Shown here: piece by piece, positions 2,204 through 44,779 of the stretch | Numbering within the stretch: position 1 is the stretch's first letter | Layout of the letters: each line of letters begins with the position of its first letter | From: an uncultured Bacteroidales bacterium | GTDB lineage: Bacteria > Bacteroidota > Bacteroidia > Bacteroidales > UBA4417 | Reading direction: 5' to 3' | Length of the DNA: 46,745 nt | Assembly (NCBI GenBank): GCA_903879715.1 | Contig: CAIRMR010000178.1 | Coordinates: 1 to 46,745, forward strand | Made by a program: the position numbers and the translations under genes | The notes under the pieces: generated by a model | Told to the model about the DNA's origin: nothing | What the model saw: the letters and a program-made list of their open reading frames with translations, nothing else | Databases searched by the model: none

Positions 2204-2350
2204 AAAGGCAAAGGTCAAAAGTCAAAGTGAAAGTCTAAAACGAATAAATTCTATTAAATGTAAGAGCTATCGCAGTCAAAATTCTCAATCTCTATTTTTT
2301 TGTAAGCCATTGATTAGCAAAAAACTTCGACTTTTGATCTTTGACTTTTT
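2204..2350. repeat. inverted heptamer arrays, locus A
   Basis: About five purine-rich 7-bp units (AAAGGCA, AAGGTCA, AAAGTCA and variants, 2204-2238) are followed by three pyrimidine-rich 7-bp units (ACTTTTG, ATCTTTG, ACTTTTT, 2330-2350). The two arrays are partly complementary, sharing an 11-base match, so a transcript could fold back here. The element lies in the 519-bp gap between the ABC ATPase and its permease. Confidence 0.6.
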
Positions 2351-2389
2351 TCATAACTGAAAATTATGCCAGAAAAAACCTCAACTTAG

Positions 2390-2439
2390 CGAAGTGGTCT
2401 CATGCGATGCACTGAGACTTCGGCGTGAGCTCAGCCGAA
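2390..2439. repeat. REP-like double hairpin
   Basis: Two hairpins share bases and cannot form together. The first pairs CGAA (2390-2393) and GTCTCA (2397-2402) with TGAGAC (2413-2418) and TTCG (2419-2422). The second pairs TTCGGC (2419-2424) with GCCGAA (2434-2439). It lies about 95 bp before the permease start. It resembles a dispersed intergenic palindrome more than a terminator, since no T-tract follows. Confidence 0.45.
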
Positions 2440-2532
2440 CGCTTGCGGAAGTGAGTACATTTAAAATAAGCAATGAGCTAATAATTTGATATTTTAGACA
2501 CTAACCCCTAAAACCCAACCCCTAAATCCTTC

Positions 2533-5500
2533 ATGTCACTAATCCCCCTGATCCTCAGCAACCTGAAATACTACCGGAAAGCCTACCTGGCAATCCTGGC
2601 CGGTACGGTCATAAGCACCGCGGTGCTTACGGGCGCATTAGTGGTTGGTGATTCAGTAAGTTATAGCCTCGGACATTTGACAGAAATCAGGCTGGGCAAA
2701 ACCCGGTTTGCAGTTCAGGCGGGCGATCGGTTTATCAGGCAGCAGCTTGCCAGCGATTTGTCAGCGAAGACTAAGACCCTTATTGCGCCTTTGTTACAAC
2801 TCGAAGGCATAGCGGTAAATACGGATAAAAACACACAACTTAACCGGGTTGAGGTGCTGGGTGTTGATACCCGGTTTCTGAAATTGTGGGATTCTCCAAC
2901 ACCGCTGCCTGGTGACGATGAAGCCATATTAAGCCGGAATGTAGCGGAAAAGCTGAATCTGAAACCCGGTGATGAATTCATCCTGAAAATACGTAAACAG
3001 GCTAAAGCTTCCGCAAATGCTCCTTTTGTGTCGGAAAAAGAGCCGCTCATTACTTTCAGGCTAAAGGTTTCCGCCTTAGCAGACGATCAGCAAATGGGAC
3101 GATTCAGTTTAAAAAGCAATCAGTCGGCACCTTTCACCGTTTTTATCAACCTGGCAGCAATGGCCCAAAAGGTGGAATTAACAGGCAATGCCAATGTATT
3201 GTTGTTTGCAGATACAAAAAGCAAAGACCTGACTCTTTCAAAACTGGATTCCCTGCTTCATAAAACCTGGAAACCGGAGGATGCAGGAATTGAATTCAGG
3301 AATTTAACCGGAAATGGCAACTACGAAATACGATCCGGTAGAATATTTATTGATGATAACACGGCAAAAGCAATTAAAACAAGTATTCCGGGAGTAAAAC
3401 CGGTACTTACATACCTGGTAAATTCCATTTCGGCGAATGGCAGATCTACTCCTTATTCATTTGTAACTGCAAAAGATCCGATATTACCCAAACAACAATT
3501 ATCGGAGCAGGAGATTATAATCAGCGACTGGCTTGCCACCGATTTATCAGTAAACCCGGGTGATTCACTTACTTTACGGTATTTTAAAATGGGTTCATTC
3601 CGGAAACTGGTGGAAGACAGCACCCGTTTCCGCATAAAAATGATTTTACCCATCACTGATCCAGAATTTGACCAGACTCTGATGCCTGATTTCCCGGGTA
3701 TGTCAGATGCCGGAAACTGCCGCGACTGGGAAACCGGGGCTCCCGTGAACCTGGATAAAATCAGGGATAAAGATGAAAAATACTGGAACGATTACCGTGG
3801 AACTCCCAAAGCCTTTATTTCAACTGCCGCAGGTGAGAAACTTTGGGATAATGCTTTCGGAAACGCAACAGCATTCCGGTTTAACGCCGACAGCAACACT
3901 TTAGCTTCGTTAAAAAGCAACTTAATGGCCAAACTTAATCCAAAGGAAAATGGACTTGCTGTAAATGATGTATATACCGAAGGCAAAACAGCTGCAGCTA
4001 ATTCAACCGATTTTGGCGGACTGTTCCTGAGCCTGAGTTTTTTTATTATTGCAGCTGCTCTGCTGCTTACTGCTTTGCTGTTTTCGCTGCATGCTCAGAA
4101 ACGGATGTCCGAAACGGCTGTTCTGGCAACATTGGGTTTCAACAAGAAGCTGATTATCCGCATTTTATTCCTGGAGACTACTTTAATTGTAATATCCGGG
4201 AGCGTGATTGGAACTATTACCGGGATATTCTATAACAATCTTTTATTAACCGGGCTTAATACGTTGTGGCAGGATGCTGTAAATACTTCAATGCTGCAGA
4301 TACATCTGAAACCGTCTACACTTTTTCTGGGTTTCGCTCTGGGTGTAATAACCGCTTTACTGACACTGCTTTTTGTATTGCTACGAAACCTGCGAAAGCC
4401 CCTATCTGCAATGGTTAAAGGAATTGTAATTCACTCGCCCGAAGCAAACCGTTCGCGAAAAAAAATAAGTTTTGCGCTATCTGTTCTGTTTTTTGCTGCT
4501 GCAGTAGCAATTATAGTTTATTCATTTATTTCCAACCATGCCGGTGCGTCTGCACCTTTTCTTTCGGCAGGTGGATTAATACTGCTTGCATGCCTTTCGA
4601 TGATGTACAGTGCGCTTTTGCACGCCGGTGAAAAAACAAAAAACGCGCTTCCGGGCTTTTTTACCCTGATTCTCCGTAATGTAAACCTTAAAAGGCGACG
4701 GACTATTACAGCCGTGGCGTTGCTGTCGATCGGAACATTCACCGTGATCATTACCGGTGCCAACCGTAAAACATTTTACGGAACCGAAAACACCAGGCAA
4801 TCCGGAACAGGTGGGTTCCTTTTCTGGGCCGAATCAACAGTTCCTGTTTTAAATGACCTGAATTCCTCAGAAGGCAGAAAAAAATATGGGCTTATGGATG
4901 AAGCGGGCCTTAATAACGTGCGATATTTACAAATGCTCCGTCTCGATGGTAACGATGCCAGTTGTTTAAACCTGAATCAGGCTTTACAACCAGCTATTCT
5001 GGGAGTTAACCCAGTGTACTTCGATCAGCAGCATTCGTTCAGCTTTGCAAACCTGGAACCTTCAGTCAACAACCAACATCCCTGGCTGGTGCTGAACACG
5101 CCGCTGGCTCCGGGTATTATTCCCGGTTTTGTTGATCAAACGGTGATTCAGTGGAACTTATTCAAAAAAGTTGGTGATACATTATTCTATACCGATGAAA
5201 AAGGCCAGGCTCTTGGAGTAAAAATCATGGGCGGGTTGAATAACTCCGTGTTCCAGGGAAATGTGCTCGTTTCGGCGGAATTTTTCCGGAAGTATTTTCC
5301 TTCCACCGGCGGGTCCAACATAATGCTGATTGATGACGCATACGCAAAACGCAGGGAAATATCCGACCGGCTTACGTATCTTTTCCAGGATTATGGCATG
5401 GTAGTTACACCGGCTTCGGAACGACTGGCGGAATTTAACTCGGTTACAAACACGTATCTTACCATATTTATGATGCTCAGCGGACTTGGCATTATTATCG

Positions 5501-5832
5501 GCACCATTGGACTGGGAATTGTTTTACTTCGCAACCTGGCAGAGCGAAAAAAGGAAATCGCACTATACCAGGCATTGGGCTTCGGAAAAAGTTATATCGT
5601 GAAACTTGTTTTTACCGAACACCTTTTTCTGCTCTTATCCGGAATTGGCATCGGCGTAATTGCTGCTTTTGCAGGAATTCTGCCTTCATTCTTTTCGCCG
5701 ACTTTCCAACTGCCAACCACCTTTTTGCTGCTGATTATTCTGTTAATAGCAGTAAACGGATTTGCCTGGATTTATTTCCCGATAAAATCATCATTACGGA
5801 AAAACCTGGTGCAATCGCTGCGAATTGAGTAA
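2533..5832 (+). CDS. large FtsX-like ABC transporter permease
   Basis: A 1099-residue inner-membrane permease of the MacB/FtsX superfamily. There is one membrane segment near residues 18-38, then a long extracytoplasmic MacB_PCD-like region. A first FtsX block (about 495-625) has three or four membrane segments and the motif SETAVLATLGFNKK. More membrane segments follow (about 650-745), then a second extracytoplasmic region, and a final FtsX block (about 990-1090) with ERKKEIALYQALGFGKS. The duplicated layout means one polypeptide could supply both halves of the permease, as in other large proteins of this class. The ATPase at 1327 is the likely partner. The role is probably export or membrane-lipid/lipoprotein handling; the substrate is unknown. 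Confidence 0.88.
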   Translation: MSLIPLILSNLKYYRKAYLAILAGTVISTAVLTGALVVGDSVSYSLGHLTEIRLGKTRFAVQAGDRFIRQQLASDLSAKTKTLIAPLLQLEGIAVNTDKNTQLNRVEVLGVDTRFLKLWDSPTPLPGDDEAILSRNVAEKLNLKPGDEFILKIRKQAKASANAPFVSEKEPLITFRLKVSALADDQQMGRFSLKSNQSAPFTVFINLAAMAQKVELTGNANVLLFADTKSKDLTLSKLDSLLHKTWKPEDAGIEFRNLTGNGNYEIRSGRIFIDDNTAKAIKTSIPGVKPVLTYLVNSISANGRSTPYSFVTAKDPILPKQQLSEQEIIISDWLATDLSVNPGDSLTLRYFKMGSFRKLVEDSTRFRIKMILPITDPEFDQTLMPDFPGMSDAGNCRDWETGAPVNLDKIRDKDEKYWNDYRGTPKAFISTAAGEKLWDNAFGNATAFRFNADSNTLASLKSNLMAKLNPKENGLAVNDVYTEGKTAAANSTDFGGLFLSLSFFIIAAALLLTALLFSLHAQKRMSETAVLATLGFNKKLIIRILFLETTLIVISGSVIGTITGIFYNNLLLTGLNTLWQDAVNTSMLQIHLKPSTLFLGFALGVITALLTLLFVLLRNLRKPLSAMVKGIVIHSPEANRSRKKISFALSVLFFAAAVAIIVYSFISNHAGASAPFLSAGGLILLACLSMMYSALLHAGEKTKNALPGFFTLILRNVNLKRRRTITAVALLSIGTFTVIITGANRKTFYGTENTRQSGTGGFLFWAESTVPVLNDLNSSEGRKKYGLMDEAGLNNVRYLQMLRLDGNDASCLNLNQALQPAILGVNPVYFDQQHSFSFANLEPSVNNQHPWLVLNTPLAPGIIPGFVDQTVIQWNLFKKVGDTLFYTDEKGQALGVKIMGGLNNSVFQGNVLVSAEFFRKYFPSTGGSNIMLIDDAYAKRREISDRLTYLFQDYGMVVTPASERLAEFNSVTNTYLTIFMMLSGLGIIIGTIGLGIVLLRNLAERKKEIALYQALGFGKSYIVKLVFTEHLFLLLSGIGIGVIAAFAGILPSFFSPTFQLPTTFLLLIILLIAVNGFAWIYFPIKSSLRKNLVQSLRIE

Positions 5833-5883
5833 AATAATGTTTAAGGATTGGCGTTTAATACAATAGCTCAAAAGTATTTGACT

Positions 5884-5891
5884 TATATTTG
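5884..5891 (+). promoter_or_regulatory. -7 box candidate for the sensor kinase gene
   Basis: TATATTTG fits TAnnTTTG and lies about 70 bases before the kinase start at 5962. No well-spaced -33 element is seen. Confidence 0.4.
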
Positions 5892-5961
5892 TTGTAATAA
5901 AAACGCAGGCTTGTTATGGTTTCGAATTGAGCGAAGCCATGAATACTAAAAACAACTTTAA

Positions 5962-7638
5962 ATGATAAAGCTTAAAACTATTTATGAACGGGTAATTTTA
6001 TTGCTTTCAGTTTCAGCAATTATATTTCTATTACTCTTTACATCCTTATATTTTTATACCCTGATCCAGGAAAAACAGGTTTATGACTCGGCTCAAACAC
6101 AGTTTTATAACGAGGTTGAATCCTTACTCGACCTGAACTCTGAATCCATGCGAATCGCAGTAAATGATTTTACAAGTTCGGACGACCTGGTTGAATTTAC
6201 CAAAAGCAGAAGTACCAAATGGTACAACGAGCATATAATAGGAGCCATAAATAGCTTAAAGGTCGATTACATTTGTGTTTACGATACGGCATTCAACATC
6301 ATAAGTGAAACATCATCTCTGAAAATTTTATCCCGCAGGTTCATCCCACGTGCTGCCGTTTCTGAAATGCTAAAGCTGCGATATTCAAATTTCTTTCTCT
6401 TGACCACCGAGGGATTGGTAGAAGTAAGCGCCGCCTCTATACATCCAACTTTCGACCGCTATCATAATAAAACACAACCCTCCGGTTACGTATTCCTGGT
6501 TCGCTTCTGGGATCTGTCGTTCAAAACCAAGTTGAGCAAAATAACGAGTTCGCGTGTTGATTTTCAGCAATTGTCCGATCAAAAAAACAACAGGGACCAC
6601 AGTGTACTTTCCGTTTCGAAAAATCTGACTGATGCAGATAACAAAACAGTTTCACACATAGTTTTCAACCGGGATTTTAATCTTAATTTCAGAACTTCCA
6701 AATCACTGTTACTCATAACGGTTATTTCATTTATGCTGGGCATGGTTGTATATATTGTCTATGCCAGATTATGGATTTATCAGCCGTTAAATCTAATCAC
6801 CAAGATACTGGAATCAGAAAATACCACTGCAATCAGTAAACTTCAGCAATCAGCCGGTGAATTCAGTTACATTGGAATACTTTTCGAAGACTATTTTAAG
6901 CAGCGAAAGACACTTGAACTTGCCAAACAAAGGGCGGAAGAGAGCGACAAACTGAAATCAGCATTCCTATCCAATATAGCTCATGAAATCCGGACACCCA
7001 TGCATGGAATTCTGGGTTTTGCCGATATGCTTAAAACGGCTTCACTTTCGGCTGAGCAAATGCAGGAATATATCACTATAATTGAGAAAAGCAGTGCCCG
7101 CATGCTCAATACCATCACCGACCTGATCGAAATATCAAGAATTGAGTCGGGCCAGACAGAGATAAACCAATCATTAATAAATATTGACAGACAATTGGAT
7201 AGCATCTATGCTATTTTTAAACCTGAGGCTGACAAGAAAGGCGTTCATCTGACTATTAATAACAATTCAGAAACTGAAGGATCATACCTACGAACCGATC
7301 GCGAAAAACTTGATACAATTCTCACCCAATTGCTTAAAAACGCAATCAAATACACGAAAAGAGGTTCCATTGAAATTGGCTATGTGCTGAAAGGCAAATA
7401 CGTTGAGTATTTTGTGAAAGATACCGGCATTGGCATTGAAATGGATAAGCAACAAGCGATTTTCGGTCGTTTTACACAAGCCGATAATTCATTATCCAAA
7501 ATATACGAAGGCGCAGGCCTGGGGCTATCAATCACAAAGGCTTATGTGGAAATGCTTGATGGCACCATTTGGGTTGAAAGTGAACCGGGAAAGGGATCAA
7601 CATTCTTTTTCACACTTCCCGCTGAAACAGATCTTTAA
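5962..7638 (+). CDS. membrane sensor histidine kinase
   Basis: A 558-residue two-component sensor. A membrane segment (about 11-34) is followed by an extracytoplasmic sensing region (about 35-245) that resembles CHASE4-type sensors in size and position. A second membrane segment (about 250-270), a linker and the kinase core follow. The phosphorylated histidine is H341 in NIAHEIRTPM. ATP-binding motifs are LLKNAIKY (N box), DTGIGIE (about 487) and GAGLGLS (about 516). The protein ends after the ATPase domain, with no receiver, and no response regulator gene lies next to it, so it is an orphan kinase here. The signal sensed is unknown; the CHASE4 suggestion is weak. Confidence 0.88.
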   Translation: MIKLKTIYERVILLLSVSAIIFLLLFTSLYFYTLIQEKQVYDSAQTQFYNEVESLLDLNSESMRIAVNDFTSSDDLVEFTKSRSTKWYNEHIIGAINSLKVDYICVYDTAFNIISETSSLKILSRRFIPRAAVSEMLKLRYSNFFLLTTEGLVEVSAASIHPTFDRYHNKTQPSGYVFLVRFWDLSFKTKLSKITSSRVDFQQLSDQKNNRDHSVLSVSKNLTDADNKTVSHIVFNRDFNLNFRTSKSLLLITVISFMLGMVVYIVYARLWIYQPLNLITKILESENTTAISKLQQSAGEFSYIGILFEDYFKQRKTLELAKQRAEESDKLKSAFLSNIAHEIRTPMHGILGFADMLKTASLSAEQMQEYITIIEKSSARMLNTITDLIEISRIESGQTEINQSLINIDRQLDSIYAIFKPEADKKGVHLTINNNSETEGSYLRTDREKLDTILTQLLKNAIKYTKRGSIEIGYVLKGKYVEYFVKDTGIGIEMDKQQAIFGRFTQADNSLSKIYEGAGLGLSITKAYVEMLDGTIWVESEPGKGSTFFFTLPAETDL

Positions 7639-7902
7639 ATCTTTGTTTTAGCGACTTTTTAATTCCCGAAGATTCGATTTCGATTGGATGTGCGTTTCAT
7701 CTGTTTATTTTTTAATTTTTACGGGTCAGATGGAATTATTAACGTCTTGCTTATTTTTAAAGGTGTTAATGAGCTAAAGGTTCGCCATGGAGATAATCAT
7801 CCCTCTGTGAGACAATTTATAGTCATGGCTCGTTTCATTAAATTATTATCCACTTAACCAGATTGGCATATAAGAATTCTATAATAATCGAACTACAAAC
7901 TT

Positions 7903-7910
7903 TACTTTTG
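7903..7910 (+). promoter_or_regulatory. -7 box candidate for the SNF2 helicase gene
   Basis: TACTTTTG matches TAnnTTTG 29 bases before the helicase start at 7940. No clear -33 element. Nothing else is seen in 7639-7939. Confidence 0.45.
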
Positions 7911-7939
7911 TATTTCAAATCCATAGCCTGCATTTTCCA

Positions 7940-10900
7940 ATGAATTTTAACCAGATTGACTATTACAATTCCTTATCGGATAGTGAGCAGTTCGTGCTAA
8001 ACATTGCTGCCCTGATAGCTGATGATATAACAGTTTATTATTTCCCGGCAGATTCATTACGCAGAAAGAAGATTTCGAATAAACTAGTCGAAATCTTTTT
8101 AGAAGATGCCTGTAACAATGGTTTATTTATTAAATCACTCAAAGAAGGTGGATATTCGGTTTCGCCGGAGTTTTTGATCTACATCTTTCCACAACTGAAA
8201 AGTTATACGGTGGAGTGGGAATATGTAAACGACAGGTACAGGTATTTTTATTACGGTACGTCGTATATCAGGAATTTGAGGGATTTTTTACACTGCCTTT
8301 TATTTAATCAGGTGAAGTATCCTGAAACGGAATTTAAATTCAGGAATAGCGGTTTCGCTCAACTAAGCTACTCCATGACAGGAATACTGGATTATGTTCC
8401 TTACAAGGAGAGTCTTTCGATGATGGACATTTCTATTGTAAGCCAGCTGCTGGAAAATAAAATCCAGAAATGCATATCAGAACTGGAACCGCTTGCTCCG
8501 ATGTATAAGTATATTGAGGATTTCAAAACAAAGGTTTCTCCTGAAAACGCAATAAAACTTCCCTCAGTAAGCGTAAACCAAAACTTCCATCTTGGCAATC
8601 TTTACGAAGCTCTGGCTGCAAATACGTTTGAAGTCACAAGCCACACTATACCGGCTCTATCACATTTATTCCAAGGCGAATTGAAGTTGGCGCTGGCTTA
8701 TTTTGAACGAAGCTTAAAATCTCAGCGTTCATTCGTAAGAGGATCTCAATTGCCCATTGTTCCTCATGATGCCTTTTATTACCTCATTGCCCTTTTATCT
8801 ATAGCACCCGAAGAATCCGCTCCTGTTTTTCAAAAAATCCACATCGCCTTACAAAAAAAGACCTGTTCTTCCAGCGATGTTATTTATATGCCTGTGTTGA
8901 ACTATGCCGTAAATGATAAAAAATCGCTTTCCCAGAGTCAGAAATTACTTTATGAAAATATACTGGCCGATTCTCAGGACTATCTTGGTATGATCAGTTT
9001 TATGGTTTTATACCTGGTTGAAAACGTGCCTGACGGAAAATTTATAACCAGGGCCTTTCAACTCACACAAAAAGCATGGATAAACGGTTATCGCCTGCTG
9101 GCTTACGAAGCGGCATTTATCCTGAAGCAATGGAACAATGATACGGAAACGAATGCTTTGTTTGAAAAAATAGCCGGCTATTTCGATTTCCAGCCGGCAC
9201 TATCGCATATTTCAAGGCAGGAAGACTGGGAAAAATCCCTAAATGTCTTTCTTTCGATGGGAGCAGGAAATGGCAATGCCAAAGGGAAAGACGAGCAGGG
9301 GAAATTCAGGGTGGTATACTTTGTGAATTTTAAACGCCATTTTTTACAACCTGTTTTACAATCCCGCACGGCGAAAGGAACCTGGTCAACCGGCAGGAAT
9401 ATTGCGCTTAAAACCTTATATGCCGGAAAAGTGGAAGGTATGACAGAGCAGGATTTCCGGCTTTCGAAACACATAAAACATTCGAACGGTTATTACGATG
9501 ATGAATATTCAATTCCCTTCGATGCCATAAAAATACTTGTTGGCCACCCTTATGTTTTTCTCGACGGAACTACCGATCTGCCTGTTGAATTAATTGCTTC
9601 ACAACCAGTACTTCAGGTTACCAAAACACCCAAAGGCTTTACATTGGCAACGGATATCACAGATTCTTCAGAACAGTTTATTATTGAAAAAGAGACGAAT
9701 ACCCGCTATAAAATTTATGACCTTAGCACTCAGCAGCAGAAAGTTATCGAAGCCATCCGACAACAAAAAATCACTGTCCCCGAATCCGGAAAAGAGAAAC
9801 TGATGCAGGTTTTAGGCAACTTCAGTACGCAATTTACTGTTCATTCCGATTTGTCAGTTTCCGACCATGCGAAAGTGAAAAGAGTTACTGCCGATCCGCG
9901 AATCAGGGTTCAATTGTTGCCCATGGGCGATGGGCTGAAAGCTGAACTTTTTGCTAAACCTTTTGGTAACTACCCTCCTTACTGCAAACCAGGAAAAGGT
10001 GGTAAAACATTAATCGCCAGCGAAAAGGGCGAACAACTCCAGGTAACACGCGATCTTATAACGGAAGCTGAATATGCCAATCAGCTGATGGTGAAAATAC
10101 AGGCACTCGAAACCCTGGACATCAGCAGTGATTTAATTGCCTTCGGCGACCCTTTGGATTCTCTGCATTTGCTGGATATCCTGAGGGCACATCAGGATAT
10201 ATGCGTTGTTGAATGGCCCGAAGGGGAACGTTTCAAAATAAGGGGAACCGTAAATTTCGGAAATCTGGCTCTGAAGATAAAAACACAAACCAATTGGTTT
10301 GAACTTCAGGGCGAACTGAAAGTGGATGAAGATACTGTGATAACCCTACAACAGTTACTCCAACTCACCGAAAAAGGTCATACCCGTTTTATAGAACTGA
10401 AACAAGGTGAGTTTCTGGCGTTGAGCGAGCGTTTAAAAAAGCAACTGGATGAGCTGCGTACATTTTCAACAACAGGAAAAGACGGTTTGCGTATCAATAA
10501 ATTTGCATCTGTCGCGTTAGTCGATTTTTTTGATGATGTCGCAAATCTGAAATCCGACAAGTCATGGAAAGATTTCCAATACCGCCTGGATTTAGTGCAA
10601 AACGCAGAAACGCAAATCCCGTCAACTCTTCAGGCCGAACTCCGTCCCTATCAGGAAGAAGGATTTCGTTGGTTATCGCACCTGTCCGAATGGGAGGCTG
10701 GTGCATGCCTGGCCGATGATATGGGCCTTGGGAAAACCATTCAGGCTTTGGCTATATTGTTACATCGGGCGCATACAGGCCCGGCCCTGGTGATTAGCCC
10801 GGTTTCGGTAATTCCAAACTGGATAAGCGAAACCGCCAAGTTTGCGCCCACGCTTAAGATAAAAACACTGACATCCGTAAATCGGGAGCAAACATTAAAA

Positions 10901-32940: not shown

Positions 32941-33015
32941 ACCCAAATTACGCTTTAGCGTAACTGAAAATCAAATCGTTGATTGTCAACTAAAAATTTA
33001 TAACAACAAAGATCC

Positions 33016-33098
33016 TGATTCCCAATTTCATAATCACGACCAGTACAACAAGCCCTCTTGAAATTTGGGGCTTGGAAATTGGGATTTGGGACTTCAAA
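33016..33098. repeat. inverted heptamer arrays, locus B
   Basis: Two 7-bp units on the left (TGATTCC, CAATTTC at 33016-33029) face an array on the right (TTTGGGG, CTTGGAA, ATTGGGA, TTTGGGA, CTTCAAA, 33064-33098). GAAATTGGGA on the right is the exact complement of the left end. Apart from this, 32941-33195 holds nothing recognisable. Confidence 0.5.
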
Positions 33099-34122: not shown

Positions 34123-34434
34123 ATGTTCGAATCAATCATACGTTTATTCACTAAAGAAAAAACCGACTACGCACAACTCGTAAAGGATGGCGCTGTAATT
34201 CTGGATGTACGTACCAAAGGCGAATTTGCAGGCGGACACATAAGGGGCTCGGTAAATATTGCCATTGAGCAGCTTGGCAATAATCTTCACAAGTTAAAAA
34301 ACAAATCAAAACCTATTATTACTTGCTGTGAGTCGGGGATGAGAAGTGCGGCTGCAAAAAATATCTTAAAATCGAACGGTTATACAGAAGTATATAACGG
34401 AGGTAGTATGTATCGTTTGCAAAACAAATTGTAA
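34123..34434 (+). CDS. single-domain rhodanese
   Basis: A 103-residue sulfurtransferase. The catalytic loop is CESGMR (Cys69 to Arg74), preceded by DVRTKGEFAGGHIRGSVNI, the standard rhodanese aspartate/arginine and histidine motifs. A second Cys sits directly before the catalytic one (CC). The open frame begins 24 codons earlier, but MFESIIRLFTKEKTDY follows an AAAGAAA stretch and fits family starts better. It is the first gene of a same-strand set that also holds a small three-Cys membrane protein and a rhodanese-thioredoxin lipoprotein, so sulfane sulfur handling is likely. Confidence 0.88.
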   Translation: MFESIIRLFTKEKTDYAQLVKDGAVILDVRTKGEFAGGHIRGSVNIAIEQLGNNLHKLKNKSKPIITCCESGMRSAAAKNILKSNGYTEVYNGGSMYRLQNKL

Positions 34435-34470
34435 TCGGCCACGAATTGAATGAAAATGGTTTATAAAAGG

Positions 34471-34684
34471 CTGGAAGACGGAAGACCGAAGTCGGAAGTT
34501 GGAAGTCGGAAGTTGGAAGTCGGAAGTCGGAAGACCGAAGACTGAAGACCGAAAAAGGGGCTAATTTTAGACTTTGTTCAATTAATGGGAATATCTGACC
34601 AAAGGAAATGGGCCAATAATACCTGTTTTTATAGATAAATAAAGGTATCAGGAGGACTTCCGTCTCCTGACTTCCGACTTCCAA
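34471..34684. repeat. inverted heptamer arrays, locus C
   Basis: Twelve consecutive 7-bp units of the form NYNGAAG (CTGGAAG, ACGGAAG, ACCGAAG, TCGGAAG, TTGGAAG and so on, 34471-34554) are followed 102 bp later by four inverted units (CTTCCGT, CTCCTGA, CTTCCGA, CTTCCAA, 34657-34684). A 16-base match, GTTGGAAGTCGGAAGT, is perfectly complementary to 34670-34685. It sits between the rhodanese gene and the small membrane protein, so it would be in the middle of any common transcript. Confidence 0.85.
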
Positions 34685-34729
34685 CAAAATAAATATTCCC
34701 CCTAAATTAACAGTAGAACTACGAATCGC

Positions 34730-34978: not shown

Positions 34979-34982
34979 TCAA

Positions 34983-35980: not shown

Positions 35981-36003
35981 TAAAAAACTAACCATTTTTT
36001 TTA

Positions 36004-36354: not shown

Positions 36355-36650
36355 AATATTCGTATTTAAATGTTTTTAAAACTGTTCTCTGCTCATTATG
36401 ACGTATCTTTTTATTTAAGGTTACAAAAAAGTGAATTTTGTTGTAATTTTACTCCCTAAATAATCTTTTTAGAATAGAATACATTTTACCGGCAAAACAA
36501 ACACCTAACACATCTGTTATTTTTACTGTTTTTTCCTTTTCATTTTTTAGTATAGAATCAAATTTCTCCATTTATTTTTACCTCGTTAACACGGCTCTTC
36601 TTGTATAAATAGGATGTAACCTTTTTCAACAACCAGCGTCATACTACCAC

Positions 36651-37220
36651 ATGAAAGAACAGGACGATATTTTTCACGTGCAGAAAGTACTTGCGGGAAA
36701 CACCACTGCATTTGCCGTTCTGGTTGAAAAACATAGTGATATGGCTTTCACTATCGCAAACAAAATTGTTCGCAACCGTGAAGATGCCGAGGAAATTGCC
36801 CAGGATTCGTTTGTGAAAGCGTTTCAATCATTACGTTCTTTTAAAGGGGATTCAAAATTCAGCACCTGGTTGTACCGCATAGTTTATAATGCAGCCATTT
36901 CGCATACCCGTCGTAAAAAACAGGATTTCACCCAGCTCGACGAACGCGTGGTAAGTGATACAACCGAAGACGAAATTTTTGAAAACCTCGACACACTTGA
37001 TGCCGAACTCCAGTCGAAACTGGTAAATGAAGCCATCAATAACCTGCCTGCCGATGAAAGTGCCATTGTTACGCTCTTTTATCTGAAAGAAAATACCATC
37101 GACGATATAAGCCAGATCACCGGGCTGAGTATGTCGAACGTAAAAGTAAAGCTGTTCCGTATACGTAAAAAGCTCTATGACGAATTGCAGACAAAGATGA
37201 AATACGAAACAGTAATGTAA
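36651..37220 (+). CDS. ECF RNA polymerase sigma factor
   Basis: A 189-residue sigma factor. Region 2 (about residues 22-90) has REDAEEIAQDSFVKAFQSLRSFKGDSKFSTWLYRI, the best-conserved stretch of ECF sigmas. Region 4 (about 125-180) has LPADESAIVTLFYLKENTIDDISQITGLSMSNVKVKLFRIRKKL. It belongs to the common RpoE-like group. Its downstream partner is the membrane protein at 37472, separated by an octamer repeat array. Next to it on the other strand lies the DUF6249 protein. Confidence 0.92.
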   Translation: MKEQDDIFHVQKVLAGNTTAFAVLVEKHSDMAFTIANKIVRNREDAEEIAQDSFVKAFQSLRSFKGDSKFSTWLYRIVYNAAISHTRRKKQDFTQLDERVVSDTTEDEIFENLDTLDAELQSKLVNEAINNLPADESAIVTLFYLKENTIDDISQITGLSMSNVKVKLFRIRKKLYDELQTKMKYETVM

Positions 37221-37227
37221 AAAAATG

Positions 37228-37235
37228 TACTTTTG
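37228..37235 (+). promoter_or_regulatory. -7 box upstream of the octamer array
   Basis: TACTTTTG matches TAnnTTTG, eight bases after the sigma factor stop codon. A transcript from here would carry the whole octamer array as its leader. No clear -33 element. Confidence 0.4.
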
Positions 37236-37270
37236 CACCTCATAAAACTAAGCAACTATTACCGTTAAAC

Positions 37271-37470
37271 CTTTGAATTCTTGAACCTTTGAACTCTTGA
37301 ACCTTTAAACTCTTGAACCTTTAAACTCTTGAACCTTTAAACTCTTGAACCTTTAAACTCTTGAACTCTTGAACCTTTAAACTCTTGAACTTTTGAACTT
37401 TTGAACTCTTGAAATCTTGAAATCTTGAACCTTTGAACTCTTGAACTCTTGAACCTTTAAACTCTTGAAC
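37271..37470. repeat. 25-unit octanucleotide tandem array
   Basis: Exactly 25 consecutive 8-bp units fill 37271-37470 with no interruption. Main units are TCTTGAAC and CTTTAAAC, often alternating, with variants CTTTGAAC, TTTTGAAC and TCTTGAAA. The last unit ends at 37470, one base before the ATG of the next gene at 37472. The number of units can be expected to change by slippage, which would alter the length and sequence of the leader. Confidence 0.95.
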
Positions 37471-37471
37471 C

Positions 37472-37909: not shown

Positions 37910-37936
37910 ACCAGAAATTTCTTTATATAAATTAAG

Positions 37937-37972
37937 ATCATTTTGCCAGCCCCGGTAAAATGATTTTTTTTT
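37937..37972 (+). terminator. rho-independent terminator
   Basis: An 11-bp stem, ATCATTTTGCC and GGTAAAATGAT (one G-T pair), loop AGCCCC, followed by eight or more T. It lies 28 bases after the stop of the putative anti-sigma gene and separates it from the kinase-like gene at 38001. Confidence 0.88.
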
Positions 37973-38000
37973 CGTCACTTTCCAAATCAATCCATTACAA

Positions 38001-38879: not shown

Positions 38880-38911
38880 CTAATTTCGGGCTCGGTAAAT
38901 TTTGAATTGTT

Positions 38912-38933
38912 AGTTGTCCGGAAAAATCGGACA
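38912..38933 (+). promoter_or_regulatory. palindromic element upstream of Bro-N gene, copy 1
   Basis: TGTCCG, a 7-base A-rich spacer, CGGACA. The 22-base stretch AGTTGTCCG, one base, AAAAATCGGACA recurs with a single mismatch at 39211-39232 inside the gene that follows. It lies about 100 bases before that gene's start, where an operator could be. Confidence 0.55.
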
Positions 38934-39032
38934 TTTTAAAATCTTTCATTTCAGGTGCATTTATATCTGGATTTTTACCGAAAATCACGTTTTAAAAGCT
39001 TATATTTAAGCATTTAAAATCATTTGAGAATC

Positions 39033-39872
39033 ATGAATAAGGACACAGCCATAAAGCTTTTCGAATCTAAAAAAATCCGTTCCATTTGGGATGATGAGGA
39101 TGAAAAATGGTATTTTTCTATCATTGATGTTGTTGAAGTATTAACAGGGACAGATCGTCCCAGAAAGTACTGGAGCGATTTAAAGGCTAAACTTAAAAAG
39201 GAGGGAAGTGAGTTGTCCGAAAAAATCGGACAACTGAAATTAGTTGCAGGCGATGGTAAACTATACATGTCAGATGTCGCAGATACTGAGCAACTTTTTC
39301 GTCTTATTCAATCCATTCCCTCCCCGAAGGCCGAACCTTTTAAGACCTGGCTTGCAAAAGCCGGCCGCGAAAGGATTGACGAAATTGAAGATCCTGAAAT
39401 TGGATTTGACCGTTTAATGGTAACTTACCTTAAAAAAGGGTACAGCAAGGAATGGGTTAACCAACGTTTAAAAAGCATTGAAATCCGGAAAGAACTTACG
39501 GATGAATGGGATGAACGCGGTGTTAAAAAAGGCCAGGAGTATGCCATCCTTACGGATGAAATTACGAAAGCCTGGAGCGGACTAAGTGTTAAACAATATA
39601 AAATTCATAAAGACCTGAAAAAGGAAAACCTCCGCGACAATATGACAAACCTTGAGTTGGTGCTGAATATGCTTGCGGAAGCATCAACTACCGAGATTTC
39701 AAAAGATAAAAAGCCCAAAACATTTAACGAAAATAAAACCGTTGCCCGAAAAGGCGGTGAAGTAGCAAAAGCAGCACGTCTGCAACTGGAAAGCACAACC
39801 GGTAAAAAAGTCGTAACATCGCAAAATGCAAAATCACTGCAGCAAGCTAAAAATAAGGAATTAAGTGATTAA
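39033..39872 (+). CDS. Bro-N (phage antirepressor-like) protein
   Basis: About 279 residues. The N-terminal Bro-N domain (about 1-100) starts DTAIKLFESKKIRSIWDDEDEKWYFSIIDVVEVLTGTDRPRKYWSDLK, a DNA-binding fold known from phage and insect-virus BRO proteins. The middle (about 100-215) is charged and helical. The C-terminus is basic (KTVARKGGEVAKAARLQLESTTGKKVV). Chromosomal copies like this are widespread in Bacteroidota, not linked to prophages, and uncharacterised. The open frame starts with TTG at 39024; the ATG at 39033 is preferred. A perfect 9-bp inverted repeat (39211-39219 and 39227-39235) lies in its own coding region, copied from or to the promoter region. Confidence 0.85.
   Translation: MNKDTAIKLFESKKIRSIWDDEDEKWYFSIIDVVEVLTGTDRPRKYWSDLKAKLKKEGSELSEKIGQLKLVAGDGKLYMSDVADTEQLFRLIQSIPSPKAEPFKTWLAKAGRERIDEIEDPEIGFDRLMVTYLKKGYSKEWVNQRLKSIEIRKELTDEWDERGVKKGQEYAILTDEITKAWSGLSVKQYKIHKDLKKENLRDNMTNLELVLNMLAEASTTEISKDKKPKTFNENKTVARKGGEVAKAARLQLESTTGKKVVTSQNAKSLQQAKNKELSD
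39211..39235 (+). repeat. palindromic element inside Bro-N gene, copy 2
   Basis: AGTTGTCCG (39211-39219), seven bases, CGGACAACT (39227-39235): a perfect 9-bp inverted repeat in codons for ELSEKIGQL. It matches copy 1 at 38912-38933 over 22 bases with one mismatch. Confidence 0.7.
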
Positions 39873-39965
39873 TCAACAACTTCCACTTACTCACTTTTCT
39901 CCACTTCACCCTTTCACCCACTCTCCCCATCACAACATTAGCATTAACAATTTAAATTACAAAAA

Positions 39966-41204
39966 TTGAACTTTTCAACATTCGGCTTCAGCCCAACCTT
40001 AATGGAAGGCATCGAAGCAATAGGCTACGAAGAAGCAACTCCTGTACAGGAATCAGCAATACCGGTAATTCTTGCAGGACGCGATTTAATCGCTTCGGCA
40101 CAAACCGGCACCGGGAAAACCGCCGCATTTTTACTGCCGGTAATCGAAAAACTTATGGCCATGCCACACGATAACCAGGTGAAAGCGATGGTTATTGTGC
40201 CAACCCGCGAACTCGCCCTGCAGATTGATCAGCAGATGGAAGGATTTTCCTATTACACAAAAGTGAGCTCCATTGCCATTTACGGCGGAACCGACGGAAC
40301 CGTTTTTTCACGCGAAAAACAGGCATTAACAGAAGGTGCCGACCTCATTGTTTGTACTCCCGGCCGGCTGATGGCTCATCTGAATATGGGTTATATAAAA
40401 TTTCCTGAACTTAAATTCCTGATTCTCGATGAAGCTGACCGTATGCTCGATATGGGATTTCACGAAGATATTCTTAAAATATTATCCTACCTGCCCAAGA
40501 AACGCCAAAACCTGATGTTTTCGGCCACCATGCCTTCAAAAATACGCCACCTGGCAAAACAGATTCTCCACGATCCTTTCGAGATTAATATCGCCATGTC
40601 GAAACCGGCCGAAAAAATCGTTCAGAAAGCGTATGTGGTATACGATACCCAGAAAATTCCGCTTATTAAAATGTTGCTGAAAGAAACAGTTATGAAGCGT
40701 GTTTTGATTTTCTGTTCAACCAAGGAAAAAACACGCCAGCTCTACCATGAACTGAAGAAAACCGGAATTAAAGCCGAAGAAATTCACTCAACCCTTGAAC
40801 AGTCAGCCCGCGAAAATGTAATTATCCGTTTTAAAAGCGGTGATATTCCTGTGCTTGTTGCCACCGATATTGTTTCCCGCGGTATTGATATCGAAGATAT
40901 TGATATGGTTATTAATTACGATGTGCCTCACGATGCCGAAGATTATATTCACCGCATCGGCCGCACAGCACGTGCTTCCGCAGAAGGAACCGCAGTTACC
41001 TTTATTAACGAACGCGATCAGCAGCGGTTTGGTGCCATCGAAACTTTACTCGAACGAGAAATTGAAAAATCTCTTGTTTCTGAAGAGTATGGCGAAACAC
41101 CAGCTTACAATCCTAAAATAAGACGAAAAGATGAAGGTCGGAAATTTGGAGGAAAAAGGAAAGGCGGAGGAAAACCAGGCAATTCGGGAAAGCGGAAAAG
41201 CTAG
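39966..41204 (+). CDS. DEAD-box RNA helicase (RhlE-like)
   Basis: A 412-residue ATP-dependent RNA helicase. The Q motif GYEEATPVQESAI (about 19-31), Walker A AQTGTGKT (about 44-51), DEAD box LDEADRMLDMGF (about 153-164), SAT (about 185-187) and the second-lobe motif HRIGRTARA (about 327-335) are present in order. The C-terminus is a short basic tail rich in Gly, Lys and Arg (about 385-412), as in RhlE-type proteins that work on rRNA or mRNA structures, often at low temperature. The start is TTG (MNFSTFGFS), as no ATG fits the Q motif. A pyrimidine-rich CTCC/CACTT low-complexity tract (about 39880-39932) lies just upstream. Confidence 0.9.
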   Translation: MNFSTFGFSPTLMEGIEAIGYEEATPVQESAIPVILAGRDLIASAQTGTGKTAAFLLPVIEKLMAMPHDNQVKAMVIVPTRELALQIDQQMEGFSYYTKVSSIAIYGGTDGTVFSREKQALTEGADLIVCTPGRLMAHLNMGYIKFPELKFLILDEADRMLDMGFHEDILKILSYLPKKRQNLMFSATMPSKIRHLAKQILHDPFEINIAMSKPAEKIVQKAYVVYDTQKIPLIKMLLKETVMKRVLIFCSTKEKTRQLYHELKKTGIKAEEIHSTLEQSARENVIIRFKSGDIPVLVATDIVSRGIDIEDIDMVINYDVPHDAEDYIHRIGRTARASAEGTAVTFINERDQQRFGAIETLLEREIEKSLVSEEYGETPAYNPKIRRKDEGRKFGGKRKGGGKPGNSGKRKS

Positions 41205-41256
41205 ATTCTGGATTTGAAAATCCTTGAACCATTATACTTTTAACATTTAACTAAAT

Positions 41257-42642
41257 TTACTTCTCTCCCTTGCTTCTCTCGTCCCAAAGTTCTTTAAAAC
41301 TTTTAGGGGCAACTTCCGGCAATTCCCGGCGTGGTCCCCAGGCTGCTGCAAAGAACTTTTTCAGCGCTTTATTCTTGTTTTTACCGCTCAGCATATCAAT
41401 GTACTTGCGTTTGCCCATAGCAGTTTTGTAGGCATACATCACAGTTTTATCAAACCGGCTGGCAAAGCCTTCCTTTACCGAATCGTTGCGGTTGTATAAT
41501 AAAAGTTCGTGGAGGTTGATTTTTACCGGGCATACTTCGGTACAGGCACCACAAAGCGAAGAAGCGAAACTCAGGTGCTTAAAATCTTTCATTCCACGCA
41601 TCCAGGGAGTGATTACCGATCCGATAGGTCCGCTGTAAGTGGTTCCGTAAGCGTGTCCGCCAATGCTTTTATAAACCGGACAAACATTGAGGCAGGCACC
41701 GCATCGGATACATCCCAAGGCACGGCGTTGGTTTTTATGTGCCAGTATTTCAGTACGGTTATTGTCGAGCAGGATCACATACATTTCTTCCGGACCGTCG
41801 TTTTCACCTTCCTGGCGCGGACCAGTAATAATTGAATTATAAACAGTCATATTCTGACCTGTTCCGTGTGTTGCCAGCAAAGGCCAGAAGAGATCCAGGT
41901 CGCGGAGTTTTGGAATAAGTTTTTCGATTCCTGCAATTACAATATGTACTTTCGGAAACGACATGCTCATCAAAGCATTGCCTTCATTTTCGGTAAGACA
42001 AACAGCGCCAATATCAGCTACCAGGAAATTAGCGCCCGTAATTCCGATATCAGCCTTAAAAAATTTATCACGCAAAAGATTCCGGACATAAGCTGTAATT
42101 TGCTGTGGTGTACTGTTGGCATCCAAACCAAATTTCTCATTGAAAAGCTGTGCCACCTGCTCTTTCGATTTATGCATGGCAGGGGTAACAATATGGTAGG
42201 GTTTTTCACCGGCAAGCTGAACGATATATTCTCCAAGGTCGGTCTCCAGCGATTCAATACCGGCTTTTTCGAGGTGCTCGTTTAATGCAATTTCCTCGGT
42301 AACCATGGTTTTGCTTTTAACGATATGCTTAGCCTGCCGCTTTTTTACAATTTTAAGCACTTCGCTAACAGCTTCGGCACCATCCTGCGCCCAGATTACC
42401 TTACCACCCCGCGATTGAAAAGAAGCTTCAAAATCAACCAGGTATTTAGGCATATCCGTAATTACCTTGTTTTTAATATGCGCAGCACGGTTTTTAGCTA
42501 ATTCAAGATTGCTGTATTGTTCCTTTCCTTTTACAACAGCAGCATCGTAGCGAGAAATATTAAATGCCAGTATTGCGCGGTGAGTTTTATCAAAAGCAGT
42601 CTTTTCGCTGTCGGTTACAAACTTGGTATAGGAATCGCTCAT
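41257..42642 (-). CDS. lutB: LutB-like iron-sulfur lactate-utilization protein
   Basis: A 461-residue protein of the LutB/YkgF family, part of the cytoplasmic L-lactate oxidation complex (LutABC). The N-terminal LUD domain (about 60-300) is followed by a two-cluster 4Fe-4S ferredoxin region: CIRCGACLNVCPVY (about 311-324) and CGACTEVCPVKI (about 361-372). Genes for LutA and LutC are not adjacent, so the complex must be completed elsewhere or this protein works alone. It is co-directional with rpiB (76-bp gap) and may share its transcript. Confidence 0.88.
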   Translation of the reverse strand: MSDSYTKFVTDSEKTAFDKTHRAILAFNISRYDAAVVKGKEQYSNLELAKNRAAHIKNKVITDMPKYLVDFEASFQSRGGKVIWAQDGAEAVSEVLKIVKKRQAKHIVKSKTMVTEEIALNEHLEKAGIESLETDLGEYIVQLAGEKPYHIVTPAMHKSKEQVAQLFNEKFGLDANSTPQQITAYVRNLLRDKFFKADIGITGANFLVADIGAVCLTENEGNALMSMSFPKVHIVIAGIEKLIPKLRDLDLFWPLLATHGTGQNMTVYNSIITGPRQEGENDGPEEMYVILLDNNRTEILAHKNQRRALGCIRCGACLNVCPVYKSIGGHAYGTTYSGPIGSVITPWMRGMKDFKHLSFASSLCGACTEVCPVKINLHELLLYNRNDSVKEGFASRFDKTVMYAYKTAMGKRKYIDMLSGKNKNKALKKFFAAAWGPRRELPEVAPKSFKELWDERSKGEK

Positions 42643-42718
42643 CTAGTTTTTATTAAAGTACGAGTTTTTTGAAAATGTTTCAACCTGGCTGTTAAAAGCA
42701 GGAAGAAAATTTATTTTA

Positions 42719-43162
42719 CTATAAAGGTATTTTATCAATCCGGGTTTTATGCCTTCCGCCTTCGAAATCGGTAGTCAAAAAAGCCATTACTGCGCTAAGT
42801 GCTTCATATTGTGAAATAAACCTACCCGGCAGGCAGATTATATTTGCGTCGTTATGGCGGCGGGCAAGTTCCGCAATTTCTGTATTCCAGCATAGCGCAG
42901 CACGTATACCGGCATGCTTGTTGGCCGTCATGCAAATTCCATTTCCGCTGCCACAAATCAGGATTGCCATCGGGTATTGGCCGTTTTCAACTGCCGAAGC
43001 CACGGGGTGAGCTACGTCAGGATAGTCTACACTTTCGGGTGTATAAGTGCCAAAATCACGAACCGAATAGCCTGATTCAGCGAGTTTTATCTTTATATGT
43101 TCCTTTAGTTCGTAACCGCCCTGATCACATCCCAAAGCTATAGTTTTCGATTTGTCAACCAT
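42719..43162 (-). CDS. rpiB: ribose-5-phosphate isomerase B
   Basis: A 147-residue RpiB/LacAB-family isomerase that interconverts ribose 5-phosphate and ribulose 5-phosphate in the pentose phosphate pathway. Hallmarks are the start GCDQGGYELKEHIK (active-site Asp), YPDVAHPVA, ICGSGNGICMTANK (catalytic Cys about residue 69) and HNDANIICLPGR. Length is standard. It lies upstream of the LutB-like gene on the same strand. Confidence 0.95.
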   Translation of the reverse strand: MVDKSKTIALGCDQGGYELKEHIKIKLAESGYSVRDFGTYTPESVDYPDVAHPVASAVENGQYPMAILICGSGNGICMTANKHAGIRAALCWNTEIAELARRHNDANIICLPGRFISQYEALSAVMAFLTTDFEGGRHKTRIDKIPL

Positions 43163-43708
43163 TGTTAGTAAGTTATTTTTTGTAAATTAACATGTGAAAT
43201 GGAATATAGCCTGTTTGCTTTCATAATTAACCACTTACACTATGAAACAAAAGTACGTCCAAAAACGAGGTGTTTCATTATCAGGTGAATAGATTTATTA
43301 AACAATTATTGTTAATAAGTGCTTACTTTTGTTACTAAAATGTGCATAGAATTTGCTTGCTCTTAACAATTAATTCACAGGTAGACCAGCCTGGGTGTGC
43401 CCGAAAAAGTTTGCTCTAGTTATGAGTCTTTTTACAACATACTATGAACATATTTTACCTGTTTATAAGCTGGAATTTTTATAACCGGCGTTGTAATGAA
43501 CAGATTGTTAACAACTACAGTAAAGGGATAAATATCAGAACTTAAACCTCGTTACAATTGTTTATAACCTGTGAATAAACATAGGCGTGCCACAATAAAA
43601 AATAAAATTTGTAAAAACTGCTAACACTATCAACAGGCTAATATTAATAACATATTAATTAATTAAAAAGAAATAATTATTATTTACTGAATAAGAAAGG
43701 TTGGAAAA
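43163..43708. promoter_or_regulatory. long intergenic region with promoters for rpiB and nadA
   Basis: 546 bp without a gene. On the minus strand TACTTTTG (43248-43255) is a likely -7 box for rpiB. On the plus strand TACTTTTG (43324-43331) fits a -7 box, but it is almost 380 bases before nadA. A perfect 10-base palindrome TTGTTAACAA lies at 43505-43514. No terminator or riboswitch structure was recognised. Confidence 0.4.
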
Positions 43709-44644
43709 ATGGAGAATGAAGAACTGATAAAAAAAATTGAAAAATTAAAGAAAGAAAAGAATGCTGTTATTCTGGCTCATTATTACCAGGTGGCCGAAAT
43801 TCAGGATATCGCCGACTTTATAGGCGACAGTTTACAGCTTTCGCAAAAAGCTGCCGAAACCGAGGCCGACATCATTGTTTTTGCCGGAGTTCATTTTATG
43901 GCCGAAACAGCAAAAATATTATCGCCTTCAAAAAAAGTACTTCTGCCGGATCTGGATGCCGGTTGTTCATTGGCTGCCAGTGCGCCTGAAAAGGAATTTT
44001 CCGACTTTGTTAAGAAACATCCTGATCATAAAGTGATTACCTACATTAATTGCACAGCAGCAGTTAAAACCTGGTCGGATGTAATTGTAACTTCCAGTAA
44101 TGCGGTTAAAATTGTTGAATCCTTTCCAAAAGATCAGAAACTGATTTTTGCTCCTGATAAAAACCTGGGCGCTTATATAAATGGTTTAACCGGTCGCGAT
44201 ATGCTGCTCTGGGACGGTGCATGCGAAGTACATGAAACCATCCGTACCGAAAGCATTCTGAAACTTAAACTGGAACATCCGGATGCAAAACTTATTGCGC
44301 ATCCTGAATGTAAAAGGCCGGTTTTAATTCTGGCCGATTTTGTTGGTTCAACAGCTGCCATGCTCGATTTTACTGCGAAAGACAGCTGCAAGAAGTTTAT
44401 CGTAGCCACCGAAACCGGTATCATTCACCAGATGCAGAAACTTTCGGCGGATAAACAATTTATTGTAGTTCCTTCGGATGAAACCTGTGCATGCAACGAT
44501 TGTCCGTATATGAAGCTGAATACGCTGGAGAAATTATATCTTTGTATGCTTAACGAAAAACCAGAAATTACTTTATCAGAAGAAGTAATCGAAAAAGCTA
44601 AGAAACCAATATTGCGTATGCTTGAATTGTCAAAGAACGGGTAG
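43709..44644 (+). CDS. nadA: quinolinate synthase A
   Basis: A 311-residue NadA, which condenses iminoaspartate with dihydroxyacetone phosphate to quinolinate in de novo NAD synthesis, using a 4Fe-4S cluster. The triplicated fold is visible: [24 protein letters not shown] at the N-terminus, a [11 protein letters not shown] loop with Cys, and [18 protein letters not shown] and [12 protein letters not shown] hold the remaining cluster cysteines. Length and motifs are complete. The neighbours nadB and nadC are not here. Confidence 0.95.
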
Positions 44645-44648
44645 GGTT

Positions 44649-44779
44649 GGAAAATAGAAAATAGTTAATGGAAAATAGTAACCAGTGAAGCCATTAACAA
44701 TTGAATTTTAAGAGTTTAAAGTTTATTGTAAAATCATTCGAAATGCAGCCTATTTTCCATTTTCCATTTTCTATTAACT
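44649..44779. repeat. inverted heptamer arrays, locus D
   Basis: Four 7-bp units (GGAAAAT, AGAAAAT, AGTTAAT, GGAAAAT, 44649-44676) are followed by four inverted units (ATTTTCC, ATTTTCC, ATTTTCT, ATTAACT, 44752-44779). AATGGAAAATAG at 44667-44678 is the exact complement of 44750-44761. It sits between nadA and the repeat-protein gene, over part of that gene's possible 5' extension. Confidence 0.7.

Follow-up and report, generated by a model that had tools for sequence, protein, structure and literature searches.

Tandem repeats with a unit of seven bases are known from cyanobacteria, where they are called short tandemly repeated repetitive (STRR) sequences and where Mazel et al. are said to have studied them. 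Inverted pairs of such heptamer arrays have been described in Xanthomonas, in which the unit is GGGAATC and the pairs numbered 70 and 75 in two genomes (Rehm et al. 2015, PMC4692102). In our study, paired inverted heptamer arrays were followed up in a stretch of 46,745 nt of a Bacteroidales bacterium (contig CAIRMR010000178.1, all of it hereafter called the window), in the 6.07-Mb draft genome to which it belongs (G000) and in other members of the genus (G001 to G015). Sampled stretches of DNA carry L-numbers.

As in Xanthomonas, the genome contains tandem 7-bp units and pairs of inverted (convergent) arrays lying close together. The preliminary description of the window had known of no described element with this inverted two-array plan; the plan is not new, since Rehm et al. 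describe paired inverted heptamer arrays, often convergent (PMC4692102). The Xanthomonas repeats overall are, as here, mostly intergenic and most often between genes of the same direction, at a mean of 28 nt behind the 5' neighbouring gene, compared with a median of 30 for the 30 same-direction elements of our genome. The majority of them lie between the same genes in both species and vary in length and sequence (PMC4692102). In the available text of that study a single G-rich unit type is treated, with a possible G-quadruplex, whereas at least four unit families were found here and some of them have no G tracts; by reading, the units of families A, C and D (GGAAGTC, TTTACGA and AATAGTT) contain no GGG runs and that of family B (TTTGGGA) does. 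Unlike in the Xanthomonas report (PMC4692102), moreover, relatives here carry a changed unit at the corresponding site, and one of the families lies partly inside a miniature inverted-repeat transposable element (MITE). The variety of units, their turnover at fixed sites and the MITE are thus what our genome adds to the known plan. Among the matches listed by a literature search, which covered a small part of the matching literature, Rehm et al. (PMC4692102) was the one paper with paired inverted heptamer arrays, and none of those matches showed many unit families in one genome, a change of unit at orthologous sites across a genus or a MITE with such arrays. Our preferred reading, in which confidence and doubt are evenly balanced, is that the elements are paired inverted heptamer tandem repeats of the Xanthomonas kind with a unit that is free to change, maintained by slippage and template switching, and that family A is also borne by a MITE. 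Two origins look to be mixed, MITE-like insertion for part of family A and an apparent rewriting in place for the other families.

Other described repeats can be compared with these elements. The TAACTGA repeats, heptamers of Beggiatoaceae, cyanobacteria and some Bacteroidetes, are likewise intergenic arrays; in the main genome of that study, however, they are direct repeats, most of which immediately precede a start codon, and a single case is inverted (MacGregor 2015, PMC4679880). BrickBuilt of Porphyromonas gingivalis is also a Bacteroidetes MITE which holds tandem repeats and is intergenic, but its units are of 23 nt in one direct array, and the part of the source available makes no mention of inverted heptamer arrays (PMC4596501). 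Repetitive extragenic palindromes and bacterial interspersed mosaic elements are palindromes of 20-40 bp that go with a tyrosine transposase (RAYT); the arms of our elements are heptamer arrays separated by loops of tens to hundreds of bases.

The abundance of the pairs was measured with a register-shift test, in which inverted repeats scoring at least 13 were collected and a shift was counted when the arms, slid against each other, also paired at 0.62 or more of positions. It was applied to 1.44 Mb of G000, about a quarter of the genome, and this sample is biased: 391 kb of it were chosen for a GGAAGT match, the remainder is mostly contigs known from those matches, and two stretches outside the 391 kb (L249 and L253) contain listed GGAAGT matches. 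The sample gave 211 inverted repeats, with the best register shift at 7 in 54, at 14 in 13 and at 21 in 6 (73 of 211 in total), whereas eleven other shifts had 25 altogether, 1-6 each. These were merged to 40 elements, from which four (L056 7374, L068 13110, L031 14092 and window 20565) were removed by hand as not heptameric by eye. Of the remaining 36, with loops of about 20 to 310 bases, 21 lie outside the picked 391 kb, that is, in about 1.05 Mb.

A second set, in which the window was joined by 20 contigs chosen by their number (the numbered set, 274 kb), contained 12 rows of period-7 arrays, three of which fall within 126 bases of L064, against 0-4 rows for each of the periods 4-13 and 15 except 7; period 14, a multiple of 7, had 9 rows. 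Inverted repeats scoring at least 15 numbered 13 in the numbered set and none in one shuffle (200-bp windows); a 7- or 14-base register was present in 3 of these 13. A cruder test counted scored arrays that lay no more than 700 bp apart as pairs. For period 7 it found one inverted and seven direct pairs in the numbered set, 12 inverted and 1 direct among the picked loci, 6 and 2 for the nadA regions of the genus and 3 and 2 for loci from other bacteria, with 0-2 inverted pairs for any other period in every set. This detector lacked sharpness, as the second arm is frequently not regular enough to be scored as an array, and it was therefore replaced by the register-shift test.

The 36 elements were grouped by unit into family A (GGAAGTC type, 16 elements), family B (CCAAATT type, 8), family C (TTTACGA type, 4) and family D (AATAG/AATGG type, 4), with four elements left outside any family, one of which (L245) resembles B by eye. 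The shared plan without shared sequence that was first noticed in the window is real, and it is common throughout the quarter of the genome that was sampled. Three tandem copies of GGAAGTY (up to 3 mismatches) had 187 + 163 matches genome-wide and 1 + 0 for the reversed pattern. In a search confined to the GGAAGT unit, matches were well above the reversed control in 12 of 15 other genus members, at control level in G004 and G006 and below the control in G010; among 15 genomes from other families of the order, none had more than 4 matches with this one unit.

Within the window four loci had been proposed, and the following features are assigned to them.

2204 to 2228, plus strand: 5' arm of locus 1, GTCAAA(A) type (arm search).
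2324 to 2348, minus strand: 3' arm of locus 1, GTCAAA(A) type (arm search).
2138 to 2513, no strand: 376-bp stretch with the GTCAAA pair and part of another repeat, without counterpart in G003.
33013 to 33029, minus strand: weak 5' arm of locus 2, no clear heptamer array (17 nt, 82% complementary).
33060 to 33091, plus strand: short TTTGGGA-type array of locus 2 (repeat scans).
34472 to 34553, plus strand: 5' heptamer array of locus 3, GGAAGTC/GGAAGAC type (Tandem Repeats Finder and lag-7 scan).
34655 to 34685, minus strand: 3' inverted heptamer array of locus 3 (31-nt arm, 87% complementary).
44653 to 44678, plus strand: 5' arm of locus 4 behind nadA, family D, AATAGAA/AATGGAA type (arm search; orthologous site compared).
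44750 to 44775, minus strand: 3' arm of the family D pair behind nadA (arm search).

All four are intergenic, as had been stated, and flanked by co-directional genes, and three of them are good inverted pairs: locus 1 (arms of 25 nt, 88% complementary, with a mixed unit spacing of 6 and 7 bp), locus 3 (34498-34528 with 34655-34685, 31 nt, 87%) and locus 4 (26 nt, 88%). Locus 2 is weaker, since its arms (33013-33029 with 33075-33091) are just 17 nt long and 82% complementary and the right arm alone is heptameric. In addition, the same site in G003 and G009 is a gap of similar length in which heptamers are absent, and locus 2 is therefore not counted as a firm case. The z-scores for folding as single-stranded DNA were -2.2, -3.0, -5.6 and -5.4 for loci 1 to 4. 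At locus 1, blastn against the corresponding stretch of G003 (L331) leaves 18 bp in place of the 376. The right part of this insertion (2357-2498) also matches elsewhere in the genome, at best 88-90% over about 130 bases, and is a separate dispersed repeat, by eye partly palindromic. No Rfam family was found at the loci, the sole Rfam match of the window being a tRNA, and a plasmid collection searched with locus 3 gave no match.

Locus 3 has a history of its own. Judged by end-sharing copies, flanks and empty sites, it is a decayed MITE-like insertion and a copy of a dispersed family, so the preliminary view that the loci did not come from the spread of one transposon fails here. Its outer features are given below.

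34432 to 34720, plus strand: MITE-like insertion of family A which carries the inverted GGAAGTC arrays (end-sharing copies, empty sites).
34424 to 34431, plus strand: probable, decayed left 8-bp target duplication, ACAAATTG, which agrees with the right copy at 6 of 8 bases.
34721 to 34728, plus strand: probable, decayed right 8-bp target duplication, ACGAATCG, compared with the left copy.

A rhodanese-like gene and the gene that follows it flank the insertion, whose first three bases form the stop codon of the rhodanese gene. With the spacer and right flank of locus 3 as query, partial copies were found in its own genome, three of which share both outer ends and are variably diverged. When the genome was searched with the end sequence (up to 3 mismatches), 8 matches were obtained, whereas the reversed control had none. 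Six of these are the seed copies, 205 to 244 bp long; L267 has arrays but no clear second end, and the match in L263, with neither arrays nor a second end, looks like a chance match. In L046 a second end was not found. The ends of the element are GGTTCT, and the six seeds have terminal inverted repeats GGTTCTACT... in common, from which the window copy has diverged. The 8-base flanks of the seeds agree at 8, 7, 7, 7, 7 and 2 positions (mean 6.3, compared with 3.9 between copies), a sum reached by 4 of 720 permutations. Four further two-ended copies agree at 6 (window), 6 (L216), 6 (L217) and 2 (L037) positions, and the mean for all ten copies is 5.8 compared with 3.6 across copies, which 14 of 200000 random permutations reach. 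The probable target duplication is thus preserved at 7-8 of 8 positions in five of the ten copies, at 6 in three including the window, and at 2 in two. G009 and G012 have an empty site, the stop codon of the rhodanese gene adjoining or overlapping the start codon of its neighbour; the element therefore entered between closely coupled genes. In G003 the element is present, its 3' arm being shortened and its flanks agreeing at 5 of 8 bases. Family A is thus, by its ends and flanks, partly mobile, its arrays also having been carried to new places by a MITE-like element. The ends and 8-bp duplications may be ISL3-like; the ISL3-type transposase PF01610, looked for as a sign of an autonomous parent with the same ends, has no match in the genome (other transposase families were not searched).

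The comparison of the same inter-gene sites in related genomes points in a different direction for locus 4. For the site behind nadA, 16 loci were fetched from 15 genomes, the locus of G014 stopping at a contig end and G011 giving no nadA match. The best-arm search found an inverted pair (score 10.5 to 18.5) in 8 of the 15 loci other than that of G014, while the remaining 7 have gaps of 0-50 bases, too short for a pair. The unit is AATAGAA in G000 and G003, GTTAATA or GTTATTG in G012 and G002, and AGCCAAC in G013. A second site lies before a gene which, from its protein sequence, we take to be smpB and belongs to family C in G000. Here G000 and G015 have inverted pairs with a TTTACGA-type unit, and G003 has an inverted pair with a quite different one. 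The top lag is 8 in G007, the gaps are short in G004, G006 and G014, no match to the downstream protein lies within the loci of G010 and G001, and the G009 locus ended at the gene. Further, each of the three arrays of L045 has a counterpart at the corresponding place in G003, one with a quite different unit, one with a unit changed by one base and one with the same unit. At these few sites arrays persist and the repeat word often differs between relatives, whereas the mirrored plan remains in some of them. Growth or rewriting in place, as had been proposed for all four loci, is the better reading at locus 4 and at smpB, because differing units occupy the same inter-gene site with some co-variation of the arms.

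Two further observations were made in relatives. In L194 (G011, about 975-1145) a heptamer array of some 200 bases lies behind an ABC gene; its unit wanders (AATCGTT, AATCGCA, AATCCGC, AATAGAA) and the 7-base register and the AAT core are mostly kept. L184 (G013) contains seven period-7 arrays scoring at least 13 in 19.6 kb, the densest among the nadA regions of relatives sampled.

A mechanism can be proposed for these observations. Short heptamer tracts would grow and shrink by replication slippage in the gap behind a stop codon; we infer slippage from the differences in length and unit observed between species. Two inverted tracts could form a DNA hairpin, and template switching could then copy one arm from the other, so that the arms stay alike while the unit drifts or is replaced. 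Template switching is suggested by arms that match each other although the unit at a given site differs between genomes, and by the missing G-U signature described below. It is a DNA-level process documented to create and repair hairpin arms and proposed to homogenise them, although the cases in the available texts concern stems of RNA genes and short inverted repeats in yeast coding DNA rather than fixed 7-base arrays (PMC8794818, PMC8604942). DNA of this kind would be tolerated between genes of the same direction, and family A, including 34432-34720, would in addition have been moved to new places by the MITE-like element, which has GGTTCT at its ends and produces target duplications of 8 bp.

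The mobility of family A invites the doubtful alternative that all families are MITE-like transposons or their remnants, with the arms as subterminal repeats, each family having ends of its own and most copies being decayed. The ends, 8-bp duplications, several copies and empty site of family A would agree with this, as would the 376-bp insertion at locus 1 relative to G003. So would the arm order, which is constant in each family: no family unit occurs in reverse order among the 36 elements, a test resting on 32 of them because four belong to no family. Such constancy is expected from descent of one pair from another or from a strand-specific process, while independent building predicts a mixture. 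The ends themselves argue otherwise. With end matrices passing 99% of background, both ends were recognised in only 4 of 16 family A elements (one of which is a model seed) and one end in 3 of 16, so that most sampled GGAAGTC pairs are without recognisable MITE ends; in the 20 elements of families B, C, D and the remainder, family A end repeats outside the arms were found at both ends in 0 and at one end in 1. Outside family A, the flanks at the array edges gave no sign of a duplication when compared (observed agreement 4.50, against 4.49 across elements; 4.1 and 4.6 for B, 4.9 and 4.2 for C and D), a weak test because it is blind to family A as well (4.19 and 4.15), whose duplications lie further out. 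Once the arrays were masked, a single similar pair remained among the 36 elements, both members of family A, and a conserved spacer as the core of an element was accordingly rejected outside that family. A search for an empty site of family B through the gene beside L065 reached distant relatives only (29-38% identity) and was uninformative. The missing match to PF01610, the one transposase family searched, and the different units at the same site across species also speak against transposons throughout.

The arms might also be kept paired by selection, as functional stems in operon transcripts which serve attenuation, RNA stability or translational control; we regard this as unlikely. With a simple reading-frame gene caller, which missed some genes, 35 of the 36 elements could be placed: 30 between same-direction genes, 3 between convergent and 2 between divergent ones. 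Against gaps of at least 100 bp (389 same-direction, 79 convergent and 115 divergent of 583, element gaps included) the same-direction excess has a Fisher p of 0.024, but against all adjacent pairs (748, 135 and 137 of 1020) it is not significant (p 0.12). For the 30 same-direction elements the median distance is 30 bases from the preceding stop codon and 57 from the following start codon, and 21 of the 30 lie nearer the upstream gene. Strong RNA folds are predicted, with a median z of -4.85 relative to 20 mononucleotide shuffles per element. If the arms were maintained as RNA stems, however, their mismatches should favour G-U over A-C on the coding strand, whereas 16 G-U and 28 A-C were counted in 30 elements (p 0.10), and 38 and 53 in 71 arm pairs of G000 at a laxer threshold. 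In 126 tight hairpins of the same DNA, used as a control, the counts were 39 G-U and 21 A-C (Fisher p 0.008 for the contrast). The lack of a G-U excess therefore speaks against arm upkeep as an RNA stem, which was not supported by this test; the element is also missing at several sites in related genomes, and the loci have no Rfam match. Intrinsic transcription terminators, which would suit hairpins behind stop codons, are very improbable and were rejected: only 3 of 35 elements lie between convergent genes and 30 between same-direction ones, the loops are long, and there is no U tract, since the ten bases behind the hairpin have a mean of only 3.7 and 3.1 T on the two strands. That the pairs are products of chance or assembly, to which one might be led because this genome and those of most relatives are drafts in tens to hundreds of contigs, can practically be set aside in view of the shuffle without such inverted repeats, the few found at other periods or shifts, and the arrays at the same sites in separate genomes of relatives.

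The preferred reading of slippage with template switching has likewise to be weighed against its own evidence. Arms match better within than between genomes at the nadA and smpB sites, modestly. The nadA arms were scored without prior arm choice, as 5' part against 3' half, and the within-genome sum was reached by 370 of 40320 permutations of 3' parts between genomes; at smpB (nine genomes, gaps of at least 90 bases) the observed sum was reached by 6295 of 362880. The predicted co-variation of the arms between relatives is thus partly borne out, but several points tell against the reading. At nadA close relatives match equally well across genomes (mean score 13.5, compared with 13.3 within genomes and 10.1 between distant relatives), and the permutation values hence partly reflect shared ancestry. 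G009 and G013 were not above the best of their own 100 shuffles at nadA, where the split scoring misses the G013 pair, both arms of which lie in the first half. At the smpB site a period of 7 or 14 bases is seen in G002, G005, G011 and G012, but no inverted arm that matches. If each locus had been built independently, as originally suggested, a constant arm order within families would not be predicted. The G-U comparison is small, and its control is not general, because it failed in other genus genomes: heptamer pairs of relatives have 2 G-U and 14 A-C mismatches and the control 1 and 7. In the cyanobacterium Lyngbya the counts are 7 and 6, with 3 and 0 in the control.

Heptamer arrays of this kind are not confined to Bacteroidales. 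In 400 kb of Lyngbya sp. HA4199-MV5, 106 period-7 arrays were found, whereas no other period between 5 and 13 had more than 6; 15 inverted repeats have a shift of 7, 14 or 21, compared with 2 with any other shift. Three tandem copies of GTTGTTA had 504 + 500 matches in the Lyngbya genome and 23 + 19 for the control; the genomes of Nostoc and Phormidesmis, from which two other loci come, had one match each. By eye, the GTTGTTA and GGCAGAG pairs of Lyngbya are all of one arm order. Among 80 nadA loci of other bacteria, 13 period-7 arrays scored at least 13, six of which come from the Lyngbya locus, compared with 1-6 for the other periods from 5 to 13. Heptamer repeats are reported to be over-represented in many bacterial genomes, and the idea is repeated that seven bases correspond to the stretch of DNA contacting the polymerase active site (PMC4692102). 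We put forward only tentatively, as rather improbable, that the layout is inherited at an inter-gene site while the sequence is not, through DNA-level copying with a fixed 7-base step which rebuilds both arms, and that the same process acts in Bacteroidales, cyanobacteria and Xanthomonas. If true, the unit word would be replaceable within a genus while the mirrored plan stays. With many units, one layout and site-by-site comparison, the process can be separated from the sequence, and slippage, template switching, transposition and RNA selection can be tested against each other at the same sites.

Two minor observations concern repeats of related appearance. In G012, upstream of a Crp-like gene (L204) and behind an ABC gene (L192), two copies of an element have ends of roughly TTAACCTGATTTATTCA/TGAATTATTCAGGTTAA and by eye hold inverted arrays of 9-base units of the ACACTGATA type, perhaps the same plan with another period. 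In the window, a direct array of 203 bp (37268-37470) with alternating 7- and 8-base units, TTGAACC/TTTGAACT, lies behind a sigma-70-like gene (36651-37220) and directly 5' of a start codon. Its site has by eye about 85 bases in G003 and a short seed only in G009 and G012, and on this comparison the array is put down to growth in place.

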